23,272 nt of DNA from a virus. Position numbers and translations under genes: made by a program. This document shows, in pieces, positions 3,074 to 19,980 of the stretch. The DNA lies in IMG/VR virus record IMGVR_UViG_3300033148_004293, positions 1 through 23,272 of that record, one strand, 5' to 3'. Position 1 is the stretch's first letter, and each line of letters starts with the position of its first letter. Below the pieces are notes generated by a model. That model searched no databases. It saw nothing but the letters and a program-made list of their open reading frames with translations, and had not been told where the DNA came from.

Positions 3074-3652
3074 ATGGTCACCAGGACGACTAAAAAAACA
3101 GCCAAAAAGAAGGCTACTAAAAAAGTAACTAAAGCTACAAAAAAGGTAGCTAAAAAAGCCACACCTAAAAAACCTGCGGCTAATTCAAAATATTCACCAG
3201 AACTAAAGCCTGTAATTCTAAACCTGGCAGCACGTGGAAAAACAAATATAGAAATAGCTGAATTATTAGGTGTTTGTGAAAAGACATTCTATAACTGGCT
3301 GACTAACTTCTGTCCTGAACTTCTACAGCCACTAGAGAAGACCAAAGAAGAAAAGATAGCTGATGTAGAACGTGCTTTGTATGAACGTGCTACAGGTTAT
3401 TCACATAAAGAAACTAAAGTACACATGACTAAAAGTGGTGTGATAAAAACACGTGATGTAATTAAACATTACCCACCTTCTGAAACAGCAGCTAAATATT
3501 ATCTAGGTAATAAAGACCCTGCTAATTGGAAGGAAAAAAGAGAAGTAGAAGTAACAGGTGATGAACCTACACGTAACCTATCATTAGCTTTTAGCTGTGA
3601 TGAAGACCCTGCTGAAGTAGATGCCAGGGGTGGTGATGAACCAGAAGAATGA
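3074..3652 (+). CDS. terS: Terminase small subunit with a histone-like lysine-rich tail
   Basis: This is the likely DNA-recognition subunit of the packaging motor, 192 aa. The first 40 or so residues are a run of K, T and A (KKATKK, KKVAKKATPKK), like the C-terminal tail of histone H1. A helix-turn-helix follows (GKTNIEIAELLGVCEKTFYNW), then a C-terminal segment with ERALYERATGYSHKE and an acidic end. The order HTH, ATGYSH-type helix, acidic tail is seen in small terminases of many phages, and the gene lies just before the HNH nuclease and the large terminase. I prefer ATG 3074 (GGAAG at 3063-3067, 6-nt spacer) over TTG 3056, which lacks a comparable site and would add six residues. Confidence 0.88.
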   Translation: MVTRTTKKTAKKKATKKVTKATKKVAKKATPKKPAANSKYSPELKPVILNLAARGKTNIEIAELLGVCEKTFYNWLTNFCPELLQPLEKTKEEKIADVERALYERATGYSHKETKVHMTKSGVIKTRDVIKHYPPSETAAKYYLGNKDPANWKEKREVEVTGDEPTRNLSLAFSCDEDPAEVDARGGDEPEE

Positions 3653-3890
3653 AATGGGTAAAGCACGTGTAGATAAACTTATATTAACTAAAACACAGAA
3701 AAGGCACATAAAGCAGCAGCTATGGAATGAAAGTAAAAAGTGTGGAATATGTGGTAAAGATTTACCAGGCTTAAAAAGGTCTACACTTGACCACATTCTA
3801 CCCCTGGGTAAGGGGGGTGAAGATAAAAAAGAAAATCTTCAGTTAGCACATTGGAAGTGTAATAACATCAAGGGTGATGACCATGAATGA
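3636..3890 (+). CDS. HNH endonuclease of the packaging module
   Basis: This is a small one-domain HNH nuclease of about 84 aa. Visible parts are CGIC (zinc pair), STLDHILPLGKGG with the catalytic D-H, then ENLQLAHWKCNNIKG with the conserved N, H and second zinc-binding region. In HK97 and other cos phages an HNH protein coded next to the terminase works with it in DNA cleavage and packaging, so this is probably a packaging partner rather than a selfish nuclease. ATG 3636 follows AGGGG (3626-3630) by 5 nt and overlaps the end of the small terminase. ATG 3621 and ATG 3654 (one base after the terminase stop) are also possible; all keep the complete domain. Confidence 0.88.
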   Translation: MNQKNEMGKARVDKLILTKTQKRHIKQQLWNESKKCGICGKDLPGLKRSTLDHILPLGKGGEDKKENLQLAHWKCNNIKGDDHE

Positions 3891-5599: not shown

Positions 5600-7180
5600 A
5601 TGCCAGTTAGTCAATTACCAGCACGTCAGATAGATATTCATAACACTGACCATCTACGTAGAATAGTAGCTGAAATAGATAATGAACAAAATAGAAGACG
5701 TAAGCGTGATGCCTGGCAGGCATTCCAGGTAAAAAATGATAATCAATTAGAATACGTAGAAAAAGAATTAGCTACGCTTTATCCTAAGACCCATACTAAG
5801 TTTAGAAAAGGTAACATTAAGATAGCTAAAAAAATTGTAGAAAAGGTTAGTAAAGCCTATAAACAAACGCCTATTAGAAAATTAGAAGATGATACCGAAA
5901 CTCAAGAACTAAATAACATCTATGATGAATATAATTTTCATAGATCATTTAAAGAAGCTGATGAACTATTTAACCTACATAAATATGTATTCATGTGGCT
6001 TACTTTTCAAAACCCTAGCGAACCTAAAGATAAACATGACATACCATTAGAAGAAGGTAAGTACGTGCTTCAGGCATTAGCACCCTATGAATATGACTTA
6101 GTTCGATGTCAAGTAAGTGGTGAACCGCTAATACTAATTATGTCCTATCCTGAAAATACTATTACACGTTTAGCAGGTAGGTCCGACGGTATCGAACAAA
6201 CAATTAGTGAAAGTCAATCTGATACATCAGCACAAACTACTATCTATAGAATATGGACACCTAACAAATTTGCTGAAGTAACAGTTAAACGTGCTAAAGG
6301 TCATGGTAATGATGATAATGACACTAATATGACTATTAACTTTAATATTCAACGTGCTAACCCACTAGGTAGATTACCAGGGGGCTATCTTCAGGCTGAT
6401 ACATCAGTAGACTACCCAGTTAAATCTGACCTGGCTAAAACATCAATAGCCTGGAATGTTTCTTTTTCTGATTTAAAGACAGCTTCAGCAGCACAAGGAC
6501 ATGGACAGTTAGTGCTAAAATACCCTGACGGTCAAAAACAAAAAGAAATTCACATGGGCATGCACACAGCTATAGGACTACCGCAAAGTAAAAAACCTGA
6601 TGCACCTGAAACTACGGCTGAATATATTAGTGCTTCACCTGACCTGGCTGGTCAGTTAGATGTACTTAAGTTTGACCTATCTAATATTTTAGATGATGAA
6701 GGTATTAAAGCTAAAGGCACCATTGAAGGTGGGGCTGAAAAGTTTAGTAGTGGTTTTGATAGGCTTATTAGTGAAGCCGATGTACAGGACAGGGTAGAAG
6801 ATAACCAGGGTCTATACAGCACATCTATTGAACAGGATATATTTTTAAGTGTTAAGGCACATGAAGAAGCCATGAACCAGCAGACCTTTAAGAAGTCTGA
6901 AAAGATTGAAGTTCATTTTGAAAAGCCTAAAGTTCTTATTACTGATAAAGAAGTACGTGAAAATATTAAATTTGATGATGAAAATGGTTTAAGCCTTTCA
7001 CATGAAAAGCACATGGTTCTAAACCCTAACTTAACTGAAGAACAGGCTAAAGAACGTGAAGAAGAAATTACTGAAGAAAAGAAAGCTAAACTTGAAGAAA
7101 TGGCAGCTAATTCACCCTTCACTGAACCAGGTGAAGAAGATGATGAAGATAGTTTACCGCCACAGCCTGAAGAAGAATAA
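5600..7180 (+). CDS. Portal protein
   Basis: This 526-aa protein is expected to form the dodecameric ring at the capsid vertex, binding terminase during packaging and the connector afterwards. Support is mainly position (directly after the large terminase), length, and an N-terminal half of SPP1 gp6-like character: helical residues 20-75, then KIAKKIVEKVSKAYKQTPIR and a DELFNLHKYVFMWL helix. The C-terminal tail is strongly acidic (LPPQPEEE at the end), as in many portals. AAAGGA precedes ATG 5600 with an A-rich spacer. A family search would be needed to name the exact portal group. Confidence 0.9.
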   Translation: MPVSQLPARQIDIHNTDHLRRIVAEIDNEQNRRRKRDAWQAFQVKNDNQLEYVEKELATLYPKTHTKFRKGNIKIAKKIVEKVSKAYKQTPIRKLEDDTETQELNNIYDEYNFHRSFKEADELFNLHKYVFMWLTFQNPSEPKDKHDIPLEEGKYVLQALAPYEYDLVRCQVSGEPLILIMSYPENTITRLAGRSDGIEQTISESQSDTSAQTTIYRIWTPNKFAEVTVKRAKGHGNDDNDTNMTINFNIQRANPLGRLPGGYLQADTSVDYPVKSDLAKTSIAWNVSFSDLKTASAAQGHGQLVLKYPDGQKQKEIHMGMHTAIGLPQSKKPDAPETTAEYISASPDLAGQLDVLKFDLSNILDDEGIKAKGTIEGGAEKFSSGFDRLISEADVQDRVEDNQGLYSTSIEQDIFLSVKAHEEAMNQQTFKKSEKIEVHFEKPKVLITDKEVRENIKFDDENGLSLSHEKHMVLNPNLTEEQAKEREEEITEEKKAKLEEMAANSPFTEPGEEDDEDSLPPQPEEE

Positions 7181-11260: not shown

Positions 11261-12439
11261 ATGGCTGATGCAAAAATAACTGACTTAGATGAACTACTGA
11301 TAGTAGATGATGCTGATGTACTAGTTATAGTAGATGATAGTGTAGCACCTAAGACTACTAAAAAAATTACTGTAGAAAATGCTGTTAAAAACCACCCTGA
11401 TGTAGCAGCTTCTACTACACATAGAAGTCAAACTGATAACCCACATGCTGTTACTAAAGCCCAGGTAGGGTTAGGTAATGCTGATAATACTGCTGACATT
11501 GATAAACCTGTTAGTACTGCCCAGGCTGCTGCTGATGTTCAGGCTATTACTGACCATAAAGCTGAAATTGACCCCCACCCACAGTATGAAACTAGTGCTG
11601 AAGCACAGGCTAAAGTAGATGCCCATGCTAATCTAACTAATAACCCACATGCTGTTACTAAGGCACAGGTAGGTTTAGCTGAAGTAGATGACACTAGTGA
11701 TGCTGATAAACCAGTTAGTATAGCTACCCAGGCTGCTTTAGATGATAAAGCTAGCTCAACCGATCTTACTAACCATGTAAATGACACTACTAACCCACAT
11801 AACGTAACTAAAAACCAGGTAGGTTTAGGTAATGTGGATAATACTAGTGATGTTAATAAACCAGTGAGTACAGCCCAGGGTGCGGCTGATGCTGTAGTGC
11901 AGGGTAATTTAACTACACATATAAATGATAATGGTAACCCACATAACGTAACTAAAAACCAGGTAGGTTTAGGTAATGTTATTAATGAATCTAATCAAAA
12001 AGGCTTTCTCCAATACCAGAATAATAATACACAGAATGCTGATGTAGGTAGCGGCTGGACCACACTAGCTTTTCAAGTAAATAGAGATTCTTTTCCTAAT
12101 AGTCTTTTTACTAAAACAAGTAACACTAATTTTAGAGTAGATTTTGCTGGGTATGTAAAATTTAATCTATCACTAGTAGTAGATACAGCTTCTAATGATA
12201 GGGGTTTTGACGCTAGGGTTTTAAAAAATGGAACAGCTTTGCCGCAGGCTACTTATTTAGGTTTAACTGCTGATAAATCAGATAATGACAGGCAGGCACA
12301 ACTAGGGGCAAGTGTTTTTGCAGAATGTTCTAATGGTGATATTTTTACAATCCAATTACAGGCAGCAGAAGACTCACAAGTAAGAATACTAACAGGTGGG
12401 GCTGTTTTTTCTATTGAAGTTTTTAGGATTAATCCGTAA
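11261..12439 (+). CDS. Fibre protein with NPH-VTK-QVGLGN repeats
   Basis: A 392-aa elongated virion protein, probably trimeric. The N-terminus (KITDLDEL, VLVIVDDSV, KKITVENAV; residues 5-43) matches an anchoring module common in phage fibres. Four repeats start at residues 60, 128, 178 and 226, of the form N-P-H-x-V-T-K-x-Q-V-G-L, the first three continuing with a D-N/D-T-x-D and K-P-V-S run; such repeats form fibre shafts in many phages. The C-terminal 145 residues (from about 247) are beta-rich, resembling C1q/TNF-type knob domains. Being among head genes, not at the tail tip, it may be a head, neck or collar fibre. AAAGGA precedes the ATG; the stop overlaps the next start (TAATG). Confidence 0.85.
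   Translation: MADAKITDLDELLIVDDADVLVIVDDSVAPKTTKKITVENAVKNHPDVAASTTHRSQTDNPHAVTKAQVGLGNADNTADIDKPVSTAQAAADVQAITDHKAEIDPHPQYETSAEAQAKVDAHANLTNNPHAVTKAQVGLAEVDDTSDADKPVSIATQAALDDKASSTDLTNHVNDTTNPHNVTKNQVGLGNVDNTSDVNKPVSTAQGAADAVVQGNLTTHINDNGNPHNVTKNQVGLGNVINESNQKGFLQYQNNNTQNADVGSGWTTLAFQVNRDSFPNSLFTKTSNTNFRVDFAGYVKFNLSLVVDTASNDRGFDARVLKNGTALPQATYLGLTADKSDNDRQAQLGASVFAECSNGDIFTIQLQAAEDSQVRILTGGAVFSIEVFRINP
11438..11989 (+). repeat. Four shaft repeats in the fibre gene
   Basis: Repeat units begin at 11438, 11642, 11792 and 11936. The first three are about 29 residues each and the fourth is shortened. The third and fourth share long nearly identical DNA, whereas the first two are more alike to each other (NPHAVTKAQVGL) than to the last two (NPHNVTKNQVGL), which suggests stepwise duplication. 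Confidence 0.88.
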
Positions 12440-13040: not shown

Positions 13041-13643
13041 ATGTTAAGTAGTTTTTATAAATTCATACTTAGAAAAACTACCCCCTTCATAAAGTGGGTA
13101 GGTAAAATACATTCACCGTGGTCACGTAAACTAATAAATGGAAAATTCTACTATACAATAAGGGAAAAAGTAGAACCAGGGACGGTACTACTTACCACTA
13201 CCTATGGTGAACTGTCTAACTTAATAAACCCAGTAAGTGTTAAGCACGGTGCCATTTATATAGGCAAAACTACTGATGACATTTGTTATGTGACTGAAGC
13301 TGTAGGTAGTGGTGTTGTTAAAACTGACCTGGTAACATTCTTAACCACTAAAGATGTAGTGATAGTGCTAAAGCCTAACTTCTTAACTGAAACTGATAAA
13401 ACACTACTAACAGGTGAAGCTGTTAAGTTCTTAGGGGTACCCTATGATTACCTTTTTGAACATGGCAAAAAAGCCCTATACTGTTTTGAAAATATAGTAA
13501 GTGTGTTTAAGGCTTTAAGACCTGAACTTAATTATAAGAAAAATGAAATAGTCAAGGGTAAGGCTGTTTATGATTCTAGTACTTTTTTATCAGATAAAGA
13601 ACTGTTTACAGTCTTATTTGATAGTAGGAAAATGAAACTATGA
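13041..13643 (+). CDS. YiiX-like permuted NlpC/P60-type cysteine hydrolase
   Basis: A 200-aa protein that fits the circularly permuted papain-fold hydrolases (YiiX/YaeF and poxvirus G6R relatives). Expected catalytic parts are visible in order: H69 in VSVKHGAIYIG, E86 in YVTEAVGSGVV, and C148 in KKALYCFENIV, the counterpart of the Y-Y-C-S-E motif. GTVLLTTTYGELS (47-59) is the typical first strand. These enzymes act on amide or ester bonds in lipids or peptides; the substrate here is unknown. There is no signal peptide, though residues 1-25 are basic and hydrophobic (FYKFILRKTTPFIKWVGKI). Sitting in the structural operon, it may be carried in the virion. It overlaps the next gene by ATGA. Confidence 0.75.
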   Translation: MLSSFYKFILRKTTPFIKWVGKIHSPWSRKLINGKFYYTIREKVEPGTVLLTTTYGELSNLINPVSVKHGAIYIGKTTDDICYVTEAVGSGVVKTDLVTFLTTKDVVIVLKPNFLTETDKTLLTGEAVKFLGVPYDYLFEHGKKALYCFENIVSVFKALRPELNYKKNEIVKGKAVYDSSTFLSDKELFTVLFDSRKMKL

Positions 13644-14964: not shown

Positions 14965-16152
14965 ATGGGTTATGGTTTAGTAGCTGATGAAGGCAGCGTT
15001 TACGTAGAAAAAGAAGTAACAGAAGGTGAATACGTTGCTGAAACTGAAGGTGCTAGTGCCCTGGAAGTTTTAAGTGACGGTTTAGAATTTACACCTTCAA
15101 AAGAATTACTTGAAAGGAATAATAGAACTGCTACTGTAGAAAAAGTACCTGCTAGGGTAGGTCAAAAGTCTATGGCTGGTTCTATTCCTATTGAATACCG
15201 TGCAGGTTCAGCAGAAGGTGATGCACCTGAAGCTAATGACCTTTATGAAGCCATGTTAGGTGGTAAACGTGTCATCACTTCTACTATTTCTGATACTGGT
15301 CACACAGTATCACGTATTCAGTTAGCTGATGGTGATGGTGCTAAATATAAAATTCATGACATTGTAAAAATTAAAGAATTTGCTGAAAGTGGTGCTGAAG
15401 ATCATGTTAGCCCTATCACTGGTAAGTCTGAAACACCAGGCGATAACTACATTGACCTATTAGTACCAATGGGTGCAGCCCCTTCTGATAATGTAGAAGT
15501 AGCACCAGTTACTATGTATTTTCACCAGTCAGGTGCCCCTACTGTTTCAGTTACAAACTATCTAGGTGGTCAGATTCGTGAAAAAGCTATTGGTATGCGA
15601 GTAACTTCTGCTGAAATTTCTAACTTCAGTACAGGGCAGTTACCACAGGTTACCTTTGCTATGGAAGGTCTGAACTATGAACGTGAAGTAGGTACACCAC
15701 TTTTTGCTTCAGAATTTGATAGCTCACTACCACCTGTAGTACTTTGTTCTAAAATTTACCAGGACGATGTAGAATTAGTACTTAATAACTTTGGTATGAC
15801 CATGACTAACACCCTAGGGTTTTTAACTTCTACGGCTTCATGCCAGGGTAAAATTAGTTCACGTATTACTGAACTAGTTACTACATTTTCAGCTAATCCG
15901 TACATGGAAGATGACGATGTAGAACAGTTTGAAAAATTTGATAAAAACACTGCTTTTAGTATCTTTGGTTCTTCACATAACCCAGGTGCTACTTCTAAAG
16001 ATGAACACTTAGAAATTGTAGCTTTTTATATGCCTAACTGTAGAAGTACTGAAATTACTACAGGTGATGAAGATGGTATTTTAACTGATGCAATTAGTGG
16101 ACAGGCGTATAAGTCTAACGGTAATGATTCGGTATTTCTAGCATTTATCTAA
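14965..16152 (+). CDS. Major tail (tube) protein
   Basis: A 395-aa protein, probably the subunit of the tail tube. The N-terminus (GLVADEGSVYVEKE, LEFTPSKELLERNNRTATVEKVPARVGQKSMAGSI) is the classic tube layout in which a beta hairpin stacks on the next ring, followed by the DLYEAMLGG region. A second half (RVTSAEISNFSTGQLPQV, FAMEGLNYE, ITELVTTFSANPYM) repeats the pattern. The strong AAGGAAGG before the ATG and the terminator 33 bp after the stop fit a highly expressed gene. At 395 aa it is longer than lambda gpV, so it may carry an extra surface domain around residues 110-170. Confidence 0.88.
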   Translation: MGYGLVADEGSVYVEKEVTEGEYVAETEGASALEVLSDGLEFTPSKELLERNNRTATVEKVPARVGQKSMAGSIPIEYRAGSAEGDAPEANDLYEAMLGGKRVITSTISDTGHTVSRIQLADGDGAKYKIHDIVKIKEFAESGAEDHVSPITGKSETPGDNYIDLLVPMGAAPSDNVEVAPVTMYFHQSGAPTVSVTNYLGGQIREKAIGMRVTSAEISNFSTGQLPQVTFAMEGLNYEREVGTPLFASEFDSSLPPVVLCSKIYQDDVELVLNNFGMTMTNTLGFLTSTASCQGKISSRITELVTTFSANPYMEDDDVEQFEKFDKNTAFSIFGSSHNPGATSKDEHLEIVAFYMPNCRSTEITTGDEDGILTDAISGQAYKSNGNDSVFLAFI

Positions 16153-16232: not shown

Positions 16233-16688
16233 ATGGCTATTGTAGTAAGCCCTATGGGCAGAATTTTTAGAATTGAAATTTCACATGAAGAAGAAAAGAT
16301 TAGTTTTGACTTGAAACAATTAGACTATAAAACTAAAGCAAAAATTACATCACTAGTAACTAGTGTAGAAAAAGGGCAGCTTCAAATAGATGCGGCTTTA
16401 CAGGTGTTCTTCAATCTAAAGCATGGTTTAAAAGCCGTGTCAGGGCTAACTGATGAAAATGGTAATGCCTATGCCCTTAAGTTTGAAGATGCTAAAAAGA
16501 CTGAATTAACTGATGACTGTGTAGATGAACTTTTAGCTACTGTACTATCAGATAATCTTCAATATTCAGCCAGGGCTTTATCAGGTTCAGTTATGCCTAC
16601 TGAAATTGTACACCCCCTTACACAGAAAAAAATTGAAGGTGTAGAAGTAATACCCCCTAGTGAACTTAAGGGTGTTACAAAAAAGTAG
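16233..16688 (+). CDS. Tail assembly chaperone, short form (lambda gpG-like)
   Basis: A 151-aa protein. It lies between the tail tube and tape measure genes, where lambda-type phages code the two chaperones that coat the tape measure protein. N-terminal strands (MAIVVSPMGRIFRIEI) are followed by a helical body (LDYKTKAKITSLVTSVEKG, CVDELLATVLSDNL). It ends GVTKK with the last codons ACA AAA AAG TAG. These form the slippery heptamer A AAA AAG in the right phase for -1 slippage, so this ORF is also the first part of a longer fusion protein. AGGAG precedes ATG 16233. Sequence resemblance to known gpG is not obvious; the call rests on position and the frameshift signal. Confidence 0.85.
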   Translation: MAIVVSPMGRIFRIEISHEEEKISFDLKQLDYKTKAKITSLVTSVEKGQLQIDAALQVFFNLKHGLKAVSGLTDENGNAYALKFEDAKKTELTDDCVDELLATVLSDNLQYSARALSGSVMPTEIVHPLTQKKIEGVEVIPPSELKGVTKK

Positions 16689-16744
16689 TAAGCCTCTATG
16701 AAGTGGCTACTATTTGGGACTATGTAAGCTACAGAATAGAGGCT
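16679..16744 (+). promoter_or_regulatory. Programmed -1 ribosomal frameshift signal
   Basis: The heptamer A AAA AAG occupies 16679-16685 in the zero-frame phase A-AAA-AAG, the same as the E. coli dnaX site. The zero-frame stop TAG follows at once (16686-16688). After a 5-nt spacer a stem begins: AGCCTCTAT (16691-16699) pairs perfectly with ATAGAGGCT (16736-16744). Inside, after a 3x3 internal loop of G and A bases, GTGGCT (16703-16708) pairs with AGCTAC (16727-16732), one pair being G-U, around an 18-nt loop. Heptamer, spacer and stem all fit a stimulated -1 shift. Confidence 0.9.
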
Positions 16745-17128
16745 GAAAGTTACTTAACTATCAGTGAAACAGCTATTTTATTGGCTTCTATAGAATCACG
16801 TTTAGACCCTAAAGCGTTTGACTGTGGTACCTGTATAATGCAGTATGGTAAATCAGCAAAAATGCAGGGTAAGTCAGACCGTAAACGTCAATCTAAAGGC
16901 TGCTTTGATCTAAAAACTAAAAGTTACAGGCTAGAAAATATTAGATACAATAACTGTATAGGTAACCACACGGTACCCATTGATTTTATTGTAGATGCTT
17001 TTCTACATTATGAAAAAGGTGGGCTACCATTTGAAGGTACTTTAGGTGACCAGCCAAATAAAATGATAGAAATATTTGACATGTTTCACCGTAGAAGGAA
17101 TGAATTTACAAAAAAGAACGCTAAATAA
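16685..17128 (+). CDS. Tail chaperone extension (T part of a GT-type fusion, via -1 frameshift)
   Basis: After -1 slippage the frame runs GTA GTA AGC CTC TAT GAA and on to 17125, so the fusion 16233-17128 is about 298 aa. The T part reads VVSLYEVATIWDYVSYRIEA and onward. A separate start at GTG 16703 is possible but has no Shine-Dalgarno and lies within the frameshift stem, so I do not favour it. The domain has four cysteines (C41, C44, C67, C85 counted from GTG 16703: CGTC, then SKGCF and NNCIG), perhaps a metal site. It ends in a basic helix (FHRRRNEFTKKNAK). In lambda, gpGT binds the tape measure and recruits tube subunits. Confidence 0.87.
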   Translation, partial: VVSLYEVATIWDYVSYRIEAESYLTISETAILLASIESRLDPKAFDCGTCIMQYGKSAKMQGKSDRKRQSKGCFDLKTKSYRLENIRYNNCIGNHTVPIDFIVDAFLHYEKGGLPFEGTLGDQPNKMIEIFDMFHRRRNEFTKKNAK

Positions 17129-17139
17129 GGAAGTTTAAC

Positions 17140-19545
17140 GTGCCTAATACTATAAGTGTAGCCATTGAGCTAGAAGGTAAAGATGCCTTACGAACCTTAA
17201 CTGCATTAAATAAAGGTGTAAAAGATTTAGGTAAAACAGGTACCCAGTCTATTAAATCAATGGACGTAGCACTAGGTAGTTTTGTGGGTAACTTAGGTGC
17301 CCAGGCTGTACTTAAGTCAGTACAGTTAGTAAGTACTGCTTTTCAAGACGGTGCAAAATCAGCTTTAGATTTTGGTAAAGCTGTAGCAGAAATTAACTCT
17401 ATTGCACCTAGAACTGCGGCTGAAACTTTAGCACTTAAACAGCAGTTAGTAGGGCTGTCTAATGAATTTGGTGGTGAAGCTCAAAAACAGGCACGTGCAT
17501 TTTATAACATTGTATCAGCAGGTGTACAGGGCACGGCAAAGCAGTTAAATGTTTTAGAAACTGCTAATAAAGCAGCCGTGGCAGGGCTAGTAGATATTGA
17601 TACTAGTGCCAGGGTTTTAGTAGCCTCAGTTAATAGTTATGCCCAGTCAGGACTAACAGCCAATGAAGCCAGTGATATATTATTTACTACTGTTAAAGAA
17701 GGTATAACTACTTTCGGTGAATTATCTAGTAGTATAGGTACAGTAGCACCTTTAGCCGCAGCCGCAGGGGTAGAATTTTCTGAACTAGGTGGTACCCTAG
17801 CATTCTTAACTAAATCAGGTGTTAGTACTGCTGAAGCAGCCACAGGTATTAGGGCATTATTAACTTCAATTATTAAACCTGCTGAACAGGCTTCACAGGC
17901 TGCTAAAAAACTAGGTATTGACTTTTCTACAGCAGCCATTAAGCAAAAAGGCTTTGTAAATGTTCTAAAAGAAATTAAAGATGCCACAGGCGGCAGTGAA
18001 GCTGAACTAGCTAAACTATTCCCTAATGTAAGGGCGTTAGGCGCAGCTATTCAAATTACATCAGGTAACTTTGATGACTTTGTTAGAATTTTAGAAAATA
18101 CAGGGGCAGCTACAGGGGCTACTGATAAAGCACTAGCCGTAATTACTGACAGTGCTGCTTTTCAATTTGACAAACTAGTTAACCAACTTAAAAACTTTCC
18201 TACAGCTATACTTACTAATTTTGAAGAACCATTAAGTGATGGTCTAAAAGCCATTAATGAATTTGTAGGCGGTCAGGGTGTCCTACTTCTAGTAGATGCG
18301 GTAGATGGTATTATTAGTGCTTTTCAATTCTTTAATTCAGCAGCCAGTGAAGTAGATCAGTTTTTTAACTTTATTGCCGCAGGGGCTTTGAATACGGCTA
18401 AAGCCTGGAATGAATTTTTATTATCAGTAAACAGTGCTAGACAGGCACTAGCTGAATTTACAGGTGAAAGTGACCATTTAGAAAATCTTAAACAGCAGGA
18501 AGAAGGTTTAAGAAAAAATATTCAAGTGTTAGACCAGGCAGTTATAGCTAACCAGCAGGCTACACTTAAAATTCAAGCTGAAGAAGAAAAACGTTTTAAT
18601 GTAGCTGAAGACTTTAGAAAAAAGATTGAAGCAGGACGTGAAGCACAGGTAGCTGCTGAAGATGCTAGACGTGAAGAACAAAAAGAAAAAGATAAAGAAA
18701 AAGCTGAAAAAGAATTAGAAGCAGCACTAGAAACTGAAACAGTTAAATTTGAAGCTATTCAAGAACTTAAAGCTGCACAACGTGAAGAAGAAAAAGAACT
18801 AGAAGAACAGGCTAAACTAGAAAAAGAATTAGCCCAGGAAGAAGAATTTAAGTTTTTAGCTAAAAACTTAGGTAAAGAACGAACGCTACGTGAACTAAAT
18901 AGAATTAAAAACATTGAAGATGAAGGTAAAAGACAAAAAGAACTTAAGAAACTAAGAGATAAAGCCAGGACAGAAGAAAAAGCTAGTATTTTTTCTTTAC
19001 GTCAGTTTGAAGATTTAAGTAACCGTGAAAAGATAGCTGCGCAGAAGTCTACACTTCAAACTATTTCTACCCTAAGTCAGTCTTCTAATAGTGCCCTTTT
19101 TGCTATTGGTAAAGCTAGTTCACTGGCTTTAGCCGGTATAAATGTGGCTGAAGGTGTTACCAAAGCCCTGGCTGCATTCCCACCACCTTTTAACTTTGCT
19201 GCGGCTGCGGCTGTAGGGGCTGCTGGTGCTATCAATATTGCTAAAATTGCTAGTGCTAAACCGCCTTCTGCTGGTAACTTTCAAAGCGGTGGTATCGTAG
19301 AAGGCTCTAGTCAGTCAGGTGACCAGCTAACTGCTAATGTAAATGGTGGTGAAGCTATATTTAATAGAAGACAGCAGCAAAACCTTTTTAGGGCTGTAGA
19401 CCAGGGTAATTTAGGCGGTGGTAATAATATAACCATCAATAACCCTATGTTCATGAATGAAGAAATGGTAGATGAAACTATTGATTTAATAAATGACCGT
19501 GTAGAATTTGGTAATAAAAGGCTGACAGCCAGTGAGGTAGCATAA
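17140..19545 (+). CDS. Tape measure protein
   Basis: An 801-aa protein that sets tail length and is expelled at infection. Residues 80-340 match the TP901 core (AVAEINSIAP, LSNEFGGEAQKQARAFY, VASVNSYAQSGLTANEASDILF, GVEFSELGGTLAFLTKSGVSTAEAATG). Residues 475-640 are charged coiled coil (EEQKEKDKEKAEKELEAAL). Hydrophobic stretches lie at about 650-705 (ALFAIGKASSLALAGI, FNFAAAAAVGAAGAINIA), likely for membrane insertion. The C-terminus has the usual QSGGIVEG and NGGEAIFN motifs (715-742). At about 1.5 angstrom per residue the tail would be near 120 nm (inferred). Start is GTG 17140 after AAGGAAG. Confidence 0.96.
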   Translation: MPNTISVAIELEGKDALRTLTALNKGVKDLGKTGTQSIKSMDVALGSFVGNLGAQAVLKSVQLVSTAFQDGAKSALDFGKAVAEINSIAPRTAAETLALKQQLVGLSNEFGGEAQKQARAFYNIVSAGVQGTAKQLNVLETANKAAVAGLVDIDTSARVLVASVNSYAQSGLTANEASDILFTTVKEGITTFGELSSSIGTVAPLAAAAGVEFSELGGTLAFLTKSGVSTAEAATGIRALLTSIIKPAEQASQAAKKLGIDFSTAAIKQKGFVNVLKEIKDATGGSEAELAKLFPNVRALGAAIQITSGNFDDFVRILENTGAATGATDKALAVITDSAAFQFDKLVNQLKNFPTAILTNFEEPLSDGLKAINEFVGGQGVLLLVDAVDGIISAFQFFNSAASEVDQFFNFIAAGALNTAKAWNEFLLSVNSARQALAEFTGESDHLENLKQQEEGLRKNIQVLDQAVIANQQATLKIQAEEEKRFNVAEDFRKKIEAGREAQVAAEDARREEQKEKDKEKAEKELEAALETETVKFEAIQELKAAQREEEKELEEQAKLEKELAQEEEFKFLAKNLGKERTLRELNRIKNIEDEGKRQKELKKLRDKARTEEKASIFSLRQFEDLSNREKIAAQKSTLQTISTLSQSSNSALFAIGKASSLALAGINVAEGVTKALAAFPPPFNFAAAAAVGAAGAINIAKIASAKPPSAGNFQSGGIVEGSSQSGDQLTANVNGGEAIFNRRQQQNLFRAVDQGNLGGGNNITINNPMFMNEEMVDETIDLINDRVEFGNKRLTASEVA

Positions 19546-19980
19546 ATGAACTTCAAAGGTAACCAGTCTAGGCACCCACTGTACAGTACTTGGAATGACA
19601 TGAAACGTAGATGCTACGTTGAAAGTAGACCTGAATACATAAATTATGGCGGTAGGGGTATTGAAGTTTGTAATAGATGGTTAGGTGACTTCTGGTTATT
19701 TGTTAAAGACATGGGTAAAAAACCTAAAGGGTATTCACTTGATAGAATTGATAATGACGGTCACTATTGCCCTGAAAATTGTAAATGGTCCAGTAGAAAA
19801 GAACAAAATAAAAATAAAAGAAATGAATATGTAAATACAAAACATAAAAATATTTATAAAGTAAGTACAGGCTATCAAGTAATTTTAACTAAACCTAGAA
19901 GAAAATATATAGGTACTTTTAAGTCATTACTAACTGCTAAAAAAGCACTTAAGGGGGTGTCTTATCAACTTCATTCCTAA
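19546..19980 (+). CDS. HNH-AP2 homing endonuclease
   Basis: A 144-aa free-standing homing endonuclease. HPLYSTWNDMKRRCY (10-24), NYGGRGIEVCNRW (33-45), SLDRIDNDGHYCPENCKW (64-81) and EQNKNKRN (86-93) are the marks of this HNH group. The C-terminal part (NIYKVSTGYQVILTKPRRKY, IGTFKSLLTAKKALKG; 102-136) resembles an AP2 DNA-binding domain. Such enzymes cut phage genomes lacking the insert and so spread. It starts directly after the tape measure stop (TAA then ATG), using GAGG upstream. Its first codons ATG AAC TTC A match the start of the next gene apart from one base, so the ATG and ribosome site probably belonged to the tail gene first. Its 3' end contains AAGGGGGTG, the ribosome site of that next gene. 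Confidence 0.92.
   Translation: MNFKGNQSRHPLYSTWNDMKRRCYVESRPEYINYGGRGIEVCNRWLGDFWLFVKDMGKKPKGYSLDRIDNDGHYCPENCKWSSRKEQNKNKRNEYVNTKHKNIYKVSTGYQVILTKPRRKYIGTFKSLLTAKKALKGVSYQLHS
19549..19966 (+). mobile_element. 418-bp homing endonuclease insertion flanked by AACTTCA repeats
   Basis: AACTTCA occurs at 19549-19555 and again at 19967-19973; including the preceding bases the match is ATGAACTTCA against ATCAACTTCA (9 of 10). Removing the 418 bp between equivalent points joins the tape measure stop to ATG AAC TTC ATT CCT AAA, a normal start for the following tail gene. This reconstructs a plausible pre-insertion junction. The exact borders are inferred. Confidence 0.65.

Follow-up and report, generated by a model that had tools for sequence, protein, structure and literature searches.

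A probable programmed -1 frameshift junction between tail assembly chaperone genes in a family of uncultured tailed phages

Results

The window analyzed here is the whole stretch of 23,272 nt that makes up positions 1 to 23,272 of IMG/VR virus record IMGVR_UViG_3300033148_004293. Its plus strand carries a run of tail genes that Pfam and PHROGs place in the order tube protein, G, T, and tape measure, which is the placement expected of a G/GT chaperone pair. The gene for the major tail (tube) protein (14965 to 16152; Pfam Phage_tube_2, E = 1e-10) adjoins G on its upstream side. G itself is a zero-frame ORF of 151 amino acids (aa) (16233 to 16688), assigned as a putative tail assembly chaperone from its modeled fold and the gene order. 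T (16679 to 17128) is an extension in the -1 frame, recognized by that open frame and by a conserved family of T proteins, and directly 3' of it lies the tape measure gene (17140 to 19545; Pfam PhageMin_Tail, E = 8e-28; PHROG tape measure, E = 2e-40).

Elsewhere in the window, a permuted papain-like amidase (13041 to 13643; Peptidase_C92, E = 1e-18) sits among the tail and structural genes, and a small HNH endonuclease (3621 to 3890; Pfam HNH, E = 1e-11) lies just upstream of the gene for the terminase large subunit. Two further ORFs have no Pfam match at 1e-3: one at 11261 to 12439 that bears repeated NPHxVTKxQVGLGNVDNT-like motifs, and one of 144 aa at 19546 to 19980, between the tape measure and the next tail gene, which, from a motif seen by eye, resembles a homing HNH-type endonuclease.

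Read directly from the window, the zero-frame ORF at 16233 to 16688 ends in ACA AAA AAG TAG. The slippery heptamer A AAA AAG (16679 to 16685) is in phase and is abutted by the TAG that terminates G (16686 to 16688), and the -1 frame is open from 16670 to 17128. The probability of an in-phase heptamer in an overlap as long as the window's is ~0.03. Five nucleotides (16686 to 16690) separate the heptamer from a two-part stem whose outer helix pairs a 5' arm (AGCCTCTAT, 16691 to 16699) with a 3' arm (ATAGAGGCT, 16736 to 16744) at nine of nine positions. Inside it, beyond a three-by-three internal loop (GAA/AGA), a 6-bp inner helix joins 16703 to 16708, which opens with GTG, the codon at which a gene caller would start T, to AGCTAC (16727 to 16732) through six pairs, one of them G-U. 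The region from 16690 to 16745 folds at -22.5 kcal/mol (z = -4.9; none of 200 shuffles equals it), and of 600 anchors drawn at random from the window, only 0.3% have a hairpin as strong that starts 3 to 11 nt away (rank 0.003). A first-pass annotation of this DNA had described an in-phase A AAA AAG directly 5' of the zero-frame stop, a -1 frame open from there to 17125, a 5-nt spacer, and a perfect 9-bp outer stem enclosing the internal loop and an inner stem of 6 bp, and the sequence agrees with that description and its coordinates to the base. Absent from it was the element AAGGG (16668 to 16672), which lies 6 nt before the heptamer and, at a duplex energy of -5.0 kcal/mol, is a weak candidate stimulator of the SD-like kind.

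An AF2 model of G built from the family alignment (pLDDT 92) was compared with 994 realigned PDB chains. Only two gave a Z of at least 2, namely YqbN (3klu; Z = 6.1, rmsd 4.4, 99 residues aligned), which we take to be a member of the tail chaperone family, and the HK97 tail assembly chaperone (2ob9; Z = 5.1, rmsd 5.9, 95 residues aligned), both below the Z of 8 that is safe alone. Several of the named best matches to G among the BFVD predicted viral structures are tail assembly or tape measure chaperones, at weak E values of ~1e-3 to 1e-2; Foldseek with G against the PDB alone gave no match with an E of ≤0.001. The Z values are of moderate strength by themselves and are consistent with the gene order, and together they suggest a tail-chaperone fold for G. 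T, aligned from 27 sequences and modeled by AF2 at a pLDDT of 83, gave no informative match in the fold search. Neither the window's own G and T nor a scan of 28 G and 27 T family members gave anything significant against the Pfam and PHROG chaperone families (best chaperone match E = 0.026, in one member only). Sequence searches with G and T matched no phage record, their sole match being one contig with identical proteins, and no relative was found among the GTDB genome contigs. In the alignment with the window's T (16679 to 17125), the T proteins are of two types: one has conserved cysteines (CxxC, then a single C and another C) that may form a metal site, and the other carries DPRLLxRGY in the same region and no cysteines.

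Because the G and T sequences are too diverged for relatives to be found directly, we used the tube protein as the query. The tube protein alone led to 14 loci and an alignment of tube proteins to 41 (42 with the window); once 12 copies and two contigs that end before G (L016 and L019) were dropped, a first set of 28 distinct junctions remained, the window included. A second tube scan, taken at the best 80 of its 113 matches, gave 74 loci with new identifiers, many of which were contigs already found, trimmed at slightly different points. Dropping 34 copies, 4 loci that were too short, and 2 (L085 and L112) without a G-like ORF left 34 new junctions and thus a total of 62, all from uncultured tailed phages. 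In L094 and L123 the ORF picked automatically as G was incorrect and was reassigned by hand from the ORF list; for the new set, the automatic counts of SDs and stems leave these two aside and use 32 of the 34 junctions, and L044 stands outside the heptamer-anchored counts of the first set, which use 27 of the 28. L085 and L112 keep the tube protein and have no G-like ORF behind its gene, and for that reason their tail module appears to be rearranged.

T lies in the -1 frame at 28 of 28 junctions of the first set and 34 of 34 of the new one, and an in-phase XXXYYYZ heptamer falls within the overlap at 27 of 28 and 34 of 34, which makes 62/62 and 61/62 overall with the second scan at its best 80 of 113 matches. 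For the first set, the frequency with which long ORFs of these loci contain in-phase heptamers predicts 1.1 of 28, giving a P of ~1e-39 if the loci are independent; all of our family P values treat them so, and shared ancestry makes them not fully so. These counts bear out the first-pass proposal that a -1 shift joins the two tail chaperone ORFs. L044 is the single junction among the 62 (best 80 of 113 matches in the second scan) without a canonical in-phase heptamer; near 6530 to 6557 it has A AAC CCC or G GGG AAG as possible nonstandard sites. The 27 heptamers of the first set include 18 of A AAA AAG, 3 of G GGA AAG, and 2 of C CCA AAG, and these three motifs account for 23/27 of them versus 23/261 background heptamers. 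In the part of PMC4066793 available to us, the same three are the most efficient motifs measured in Escherichia coli.

The heptamers also bear on whether the ribosome is what slips. RNA polymerase slipping on a run of A residues could make a fusion instead, and the window does have a six-A run, with longer ones in some relatives (e.g., L017 and L099). However, 17 of the 61 heptamers (second scan at its best 80 of 113 matches) belong to the GGGAAA or CCCAAA type and have no long A run, which makes it unlikely that polymerase slippage is the general mechanism; moreover, these heptamers keep the X XXY YYZ phase, for which polymerase slippage has no need. We therefore regard this explanation as very improbable.

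T might alternatively be a separate gene, begun at GTG 16703 or by reinitiation after the stop of G. The GTG is present 15 nt past that stop, and an SD-like element upstream of a gene's end can take part in translational coupling, according to the available portion of PMC5009743. The codon nevertheless has an SD energy of -1.0 kcal/mol, and thus no usable ribosome site, and it is buried in the stem, whose inner helix it opens, just as the first-pass annotation had placed it. With the second scan at its best 80 of 113 matches, the T frame lacks any ATG, GTG, or TTG as far as 42 nt beyond the G stop at 38 of the 62 junctions and as far as 66 nt beyond it at 22, and a separate gene would leave the in-phase heptamers at 61 of the 62 unexplained. 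Relatives without a start for T already disfavor this reading, to which we give almost no weight, and the first-pass view that the downstream ORF is not a gene of its own stands.

The position and identity of the zero-frame stop follow a pattern across the family. No more than one codon separates the heptamer from the stop at 20 of 27 junctions of the first set (7.1 expected from overlap lengths; P = 2e-8) and at 18 of 32 in the new set drawn from the best 80 of 113 matches (9.2 expected; P = 0.0005); counting L123, which has this arrangement, and L094, which does not, the total on the same sampling is 39 of 61. The heptamer-to-stop distance averages 26 nt in the SEA-PHAGES training genes, as given in the accessible part of PMC10885494. 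TGA terminates G at 0 of 28 junctions of the first set (3.1 expected; P = 0.027) and 1 of 34 in the new one (6.9 expected; P = 0.0026), or 1 of 62 versus 9.7 expected overall (P = 0.0001), with the second scan at its best 80 of 113 matches and with expectations corrected for what the T frame encodes and for background stop use. The sole TGA (L093, near 4570) is preceded by C, and CTGA makes no start codon; where A, G, or T precedes the stop, TGA is found at 0 of 53 junctions (7.0 expected; second scan again at its best 80 of 113). The upstream chaperone ORF of 12 well-known phages ends in TGA in 7. Stop proximity and TGA avoidance are both seen in the 28 junctions and replicated in the 34 new ones, and the avoidance survives correction for T-frame coding as well as for background stop use. 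An apparent enrichment of TAG among G stops (12/28 versus 4.1 expected) was rejected: it is gone once T-frame coding is modeled (12.9 expected), and it persists if background stop use enters as a further factor (5.0 expected; P = 0.002).

Upstream of the heptamer, pairing energy with the 16S tail peaks 5 to 10 nt away in the first set, with a mean of -5.1 kcal/mol at 6 to 8 nt and of about -1.2 kcal/mol at 14 to 20 nt. SDs were counted as of proven type by our reading of the types and distances in the available part of PMC4066793. By this count, 20 of 27 junctions in the first set have one, against a genic expectation of 3.4 and a synonymous-codon null with a mean of 11.3 that was as high in 0 of 1,000 draws. 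The new set, from the best 80 of 113 matches, has 13 of 32, which exceeds the genic expectation of 4.4 (P = 0.00015) and is not above the synonymous-codon null (mean 10.0; 65 of 500 as high); on that sampling the total is 33 of 59. An SD-like element is common in the family and not universal. The window's own AAGGG falls outside the experimentally proven types listed in the accessible text of PMC4066793; with its 6-nt gap, it is a weak candidate for the stimulatory SD that a dnaX-type signal has 9 to 14 nt upstream. Conserved SDs are recorded for some insertion sequence (IS) and prophage clusters (3 of 13) in the same portion of that source.

Two ideas about the SD were tried and rejected. A trade-off between SD and stem was suggested by the 27 loci scored in the first set (Spearman -0.35; P = 0.07) and fixed as a hypothesis before the new loci were taken up; the 32 new loci gave +0.21 (P = 0.25), and all 59 gave 0.07, with the second scan at its best 80 of 113 matches. 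Nor is the SD unique to this family, as in a panel of 12 phages there are SD-like energies (in kcal/mol) before the candidate sites of D3 (-7.2), TM4 (-5.5), P2 (-4.9), and HK022 (-4.4). No such energy precedes the candidate sites of lambda, TP901-1, and A118, and the remaining 5 of the 12 (HK97, N15, Mu, phiC31, and D29) have no heptamer-pattern site in the overlap and are therefore uninformative.

The downstream stem is facultative in the family and is not conserved as such, and the window is among its strong cases. Stem rank falls below 0.05 in 7 of 59 loci, with 3 expected (Kolmogorov-Smirnov P = 0.0016; second scan at its best 80 of 113 matches), and z falls below -2 in 6 of the 27 first-set loci. 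In the covariation check put forward by the first-pass annotation, the 15 pairs of the window's stem were counted in the window plus the four relatives nearest to it: 57% of cells are paired, compared with 25 to 45% in slid controls, but the window supplies a fifth of those cells, all of them paired, and the sequences are too diverged for the figure to speak clearly for or against the stem. The best stems of the four relatives lie elsewhere than the window's, and we lean toward stem turnover rather than stem conservation among them.

Both elements might be by-products of coding constraint, with the heptamer alone being of consequence. The enrichment in stems is modest, and the replication-set SD count, from the best 80 of 113 matches, stays within its synonymous null; against this stand the exceptional stem of the window (rank 0.003; z = -4.9) and the first-set SD count, which the synonymous null never reached. 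On balance we consider the by-product explanation unlikely. The first-pass claim that the ratio of G to GT depends on the stem alone is unsupported, because the SD-like element, which many relatives carry upstream in place of the stem or beside it, is common across the family and the stem is facultative. Heptamer type and the stop may matter for the ratio as well.

Discussion

We interpret the junction as a programmed -1 ribosomal frameshift site that would give G (151 aa) together with a rarer fusion, GT (151 + 147 = 298 aa), and we assign this reading a probability of roughly 0.93. Its basis is the junction anatomy, the frame, the conservation across the family, the missing start for T, the fold of G, and the gene order; from these we infer that ribosomes slip here and, for the fusion, how often. 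In the mechanism we propose, two tail assembly chaperones would be made from one start. Ribosomes reaching A AAA AAG would have both tRNA-Lys molecules re-pair one base back, with the two-part downstream stem holding the ribosome during the slip and the weak upstream AAGGG perhaps helping or perhaps not. Slipped ribosomes would continue with GTA GTA AGC and would therefore avoid the TAG. By analogy with what is recorded for lambda, G would bind the tape measure and T would recruit the tube protein.

Fusion of G to T by a -1 shift is a classical arrangement (available part of PMC5009743). The gpG/gpGT system of lambda shares with the window the site between the tube and tape measure genes, the -1 direction, and the logic of a short product plus a fusion (lambda record and accessible part of PMC5009743). 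Lambda, however, has G GGA AAG, a different heptamer as the first-pass annotation had stated, 15 nt before a TGA and without an SD-like element, whereas the window has A AAA AAG, the heptamer of E. coli dnaX, touching a TAG and followed by a strong stem, and its G and T have no significant sequence-family match. With dnaX the window further shares a stem a few nucleotides downstream. The dnaX gene has a peak in SD energy 5 to 10 nt upstream, a feature that the phage family shows on average and lambda does not, although the window's own SD is weak. The dnaX shift makes the shorter product, whereas the window's would make the longer one; the dnaX genes of a few bacteria, in which the stop directly follows the site, come closer to the window's layout (PMC5009743, available part). 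The window's heptamer also occurs among mobile elements. The IS911- and IS3-type frameshifts make a transposase fusion, and their gene context is unrelated to the window's. They share A AAA AAG or related heptamers, accompanied by an SD-like element and/or a downstream structure, as far as the accessible parts of PMC4066793 and PMC5009743 describe them.

The heptamer on or beside the stop, together with the avoidance of TGA, leads us to a more tentative proposal, namely that the frameshift signal includes the zero-frame stop. The ratio of G to GT could be set by competition between slippage and release at UAA or UAG; alternatively, the arrangement could ensure that no NTG start for a free T arises at NTGA below an upstream SD. 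TGA avoidance fits either an avoided NTG start for T or a role for the release factor, and we hold the proposal as a whole to be rather doubtful. Our literature search, in a library that covers a minority of subscription papers, turned up nothing published about this phage family, nor about the choice of stop codon at tail-chaperone frameshift sites.

What emerges is a well-supported frameshift junction in a phage family for which no matching isolate was found here. The annotation is thereby corrected for a family of uncultured phages whose G and T are recognized by no profile library. The question of whether the adjacent stop participates arose from a pattern that was replicated in new loci, and not from the first-pass annotation. 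The ~60 distinct frameshift cassettes assembled here do the same job with differing heptamers, upstream SDs, stems, and stop distances, and they form a natural series in which the interchangeability of the parts of a bacterial -1 signal, and any role in it of the stop beside the heptamer, can be examined.
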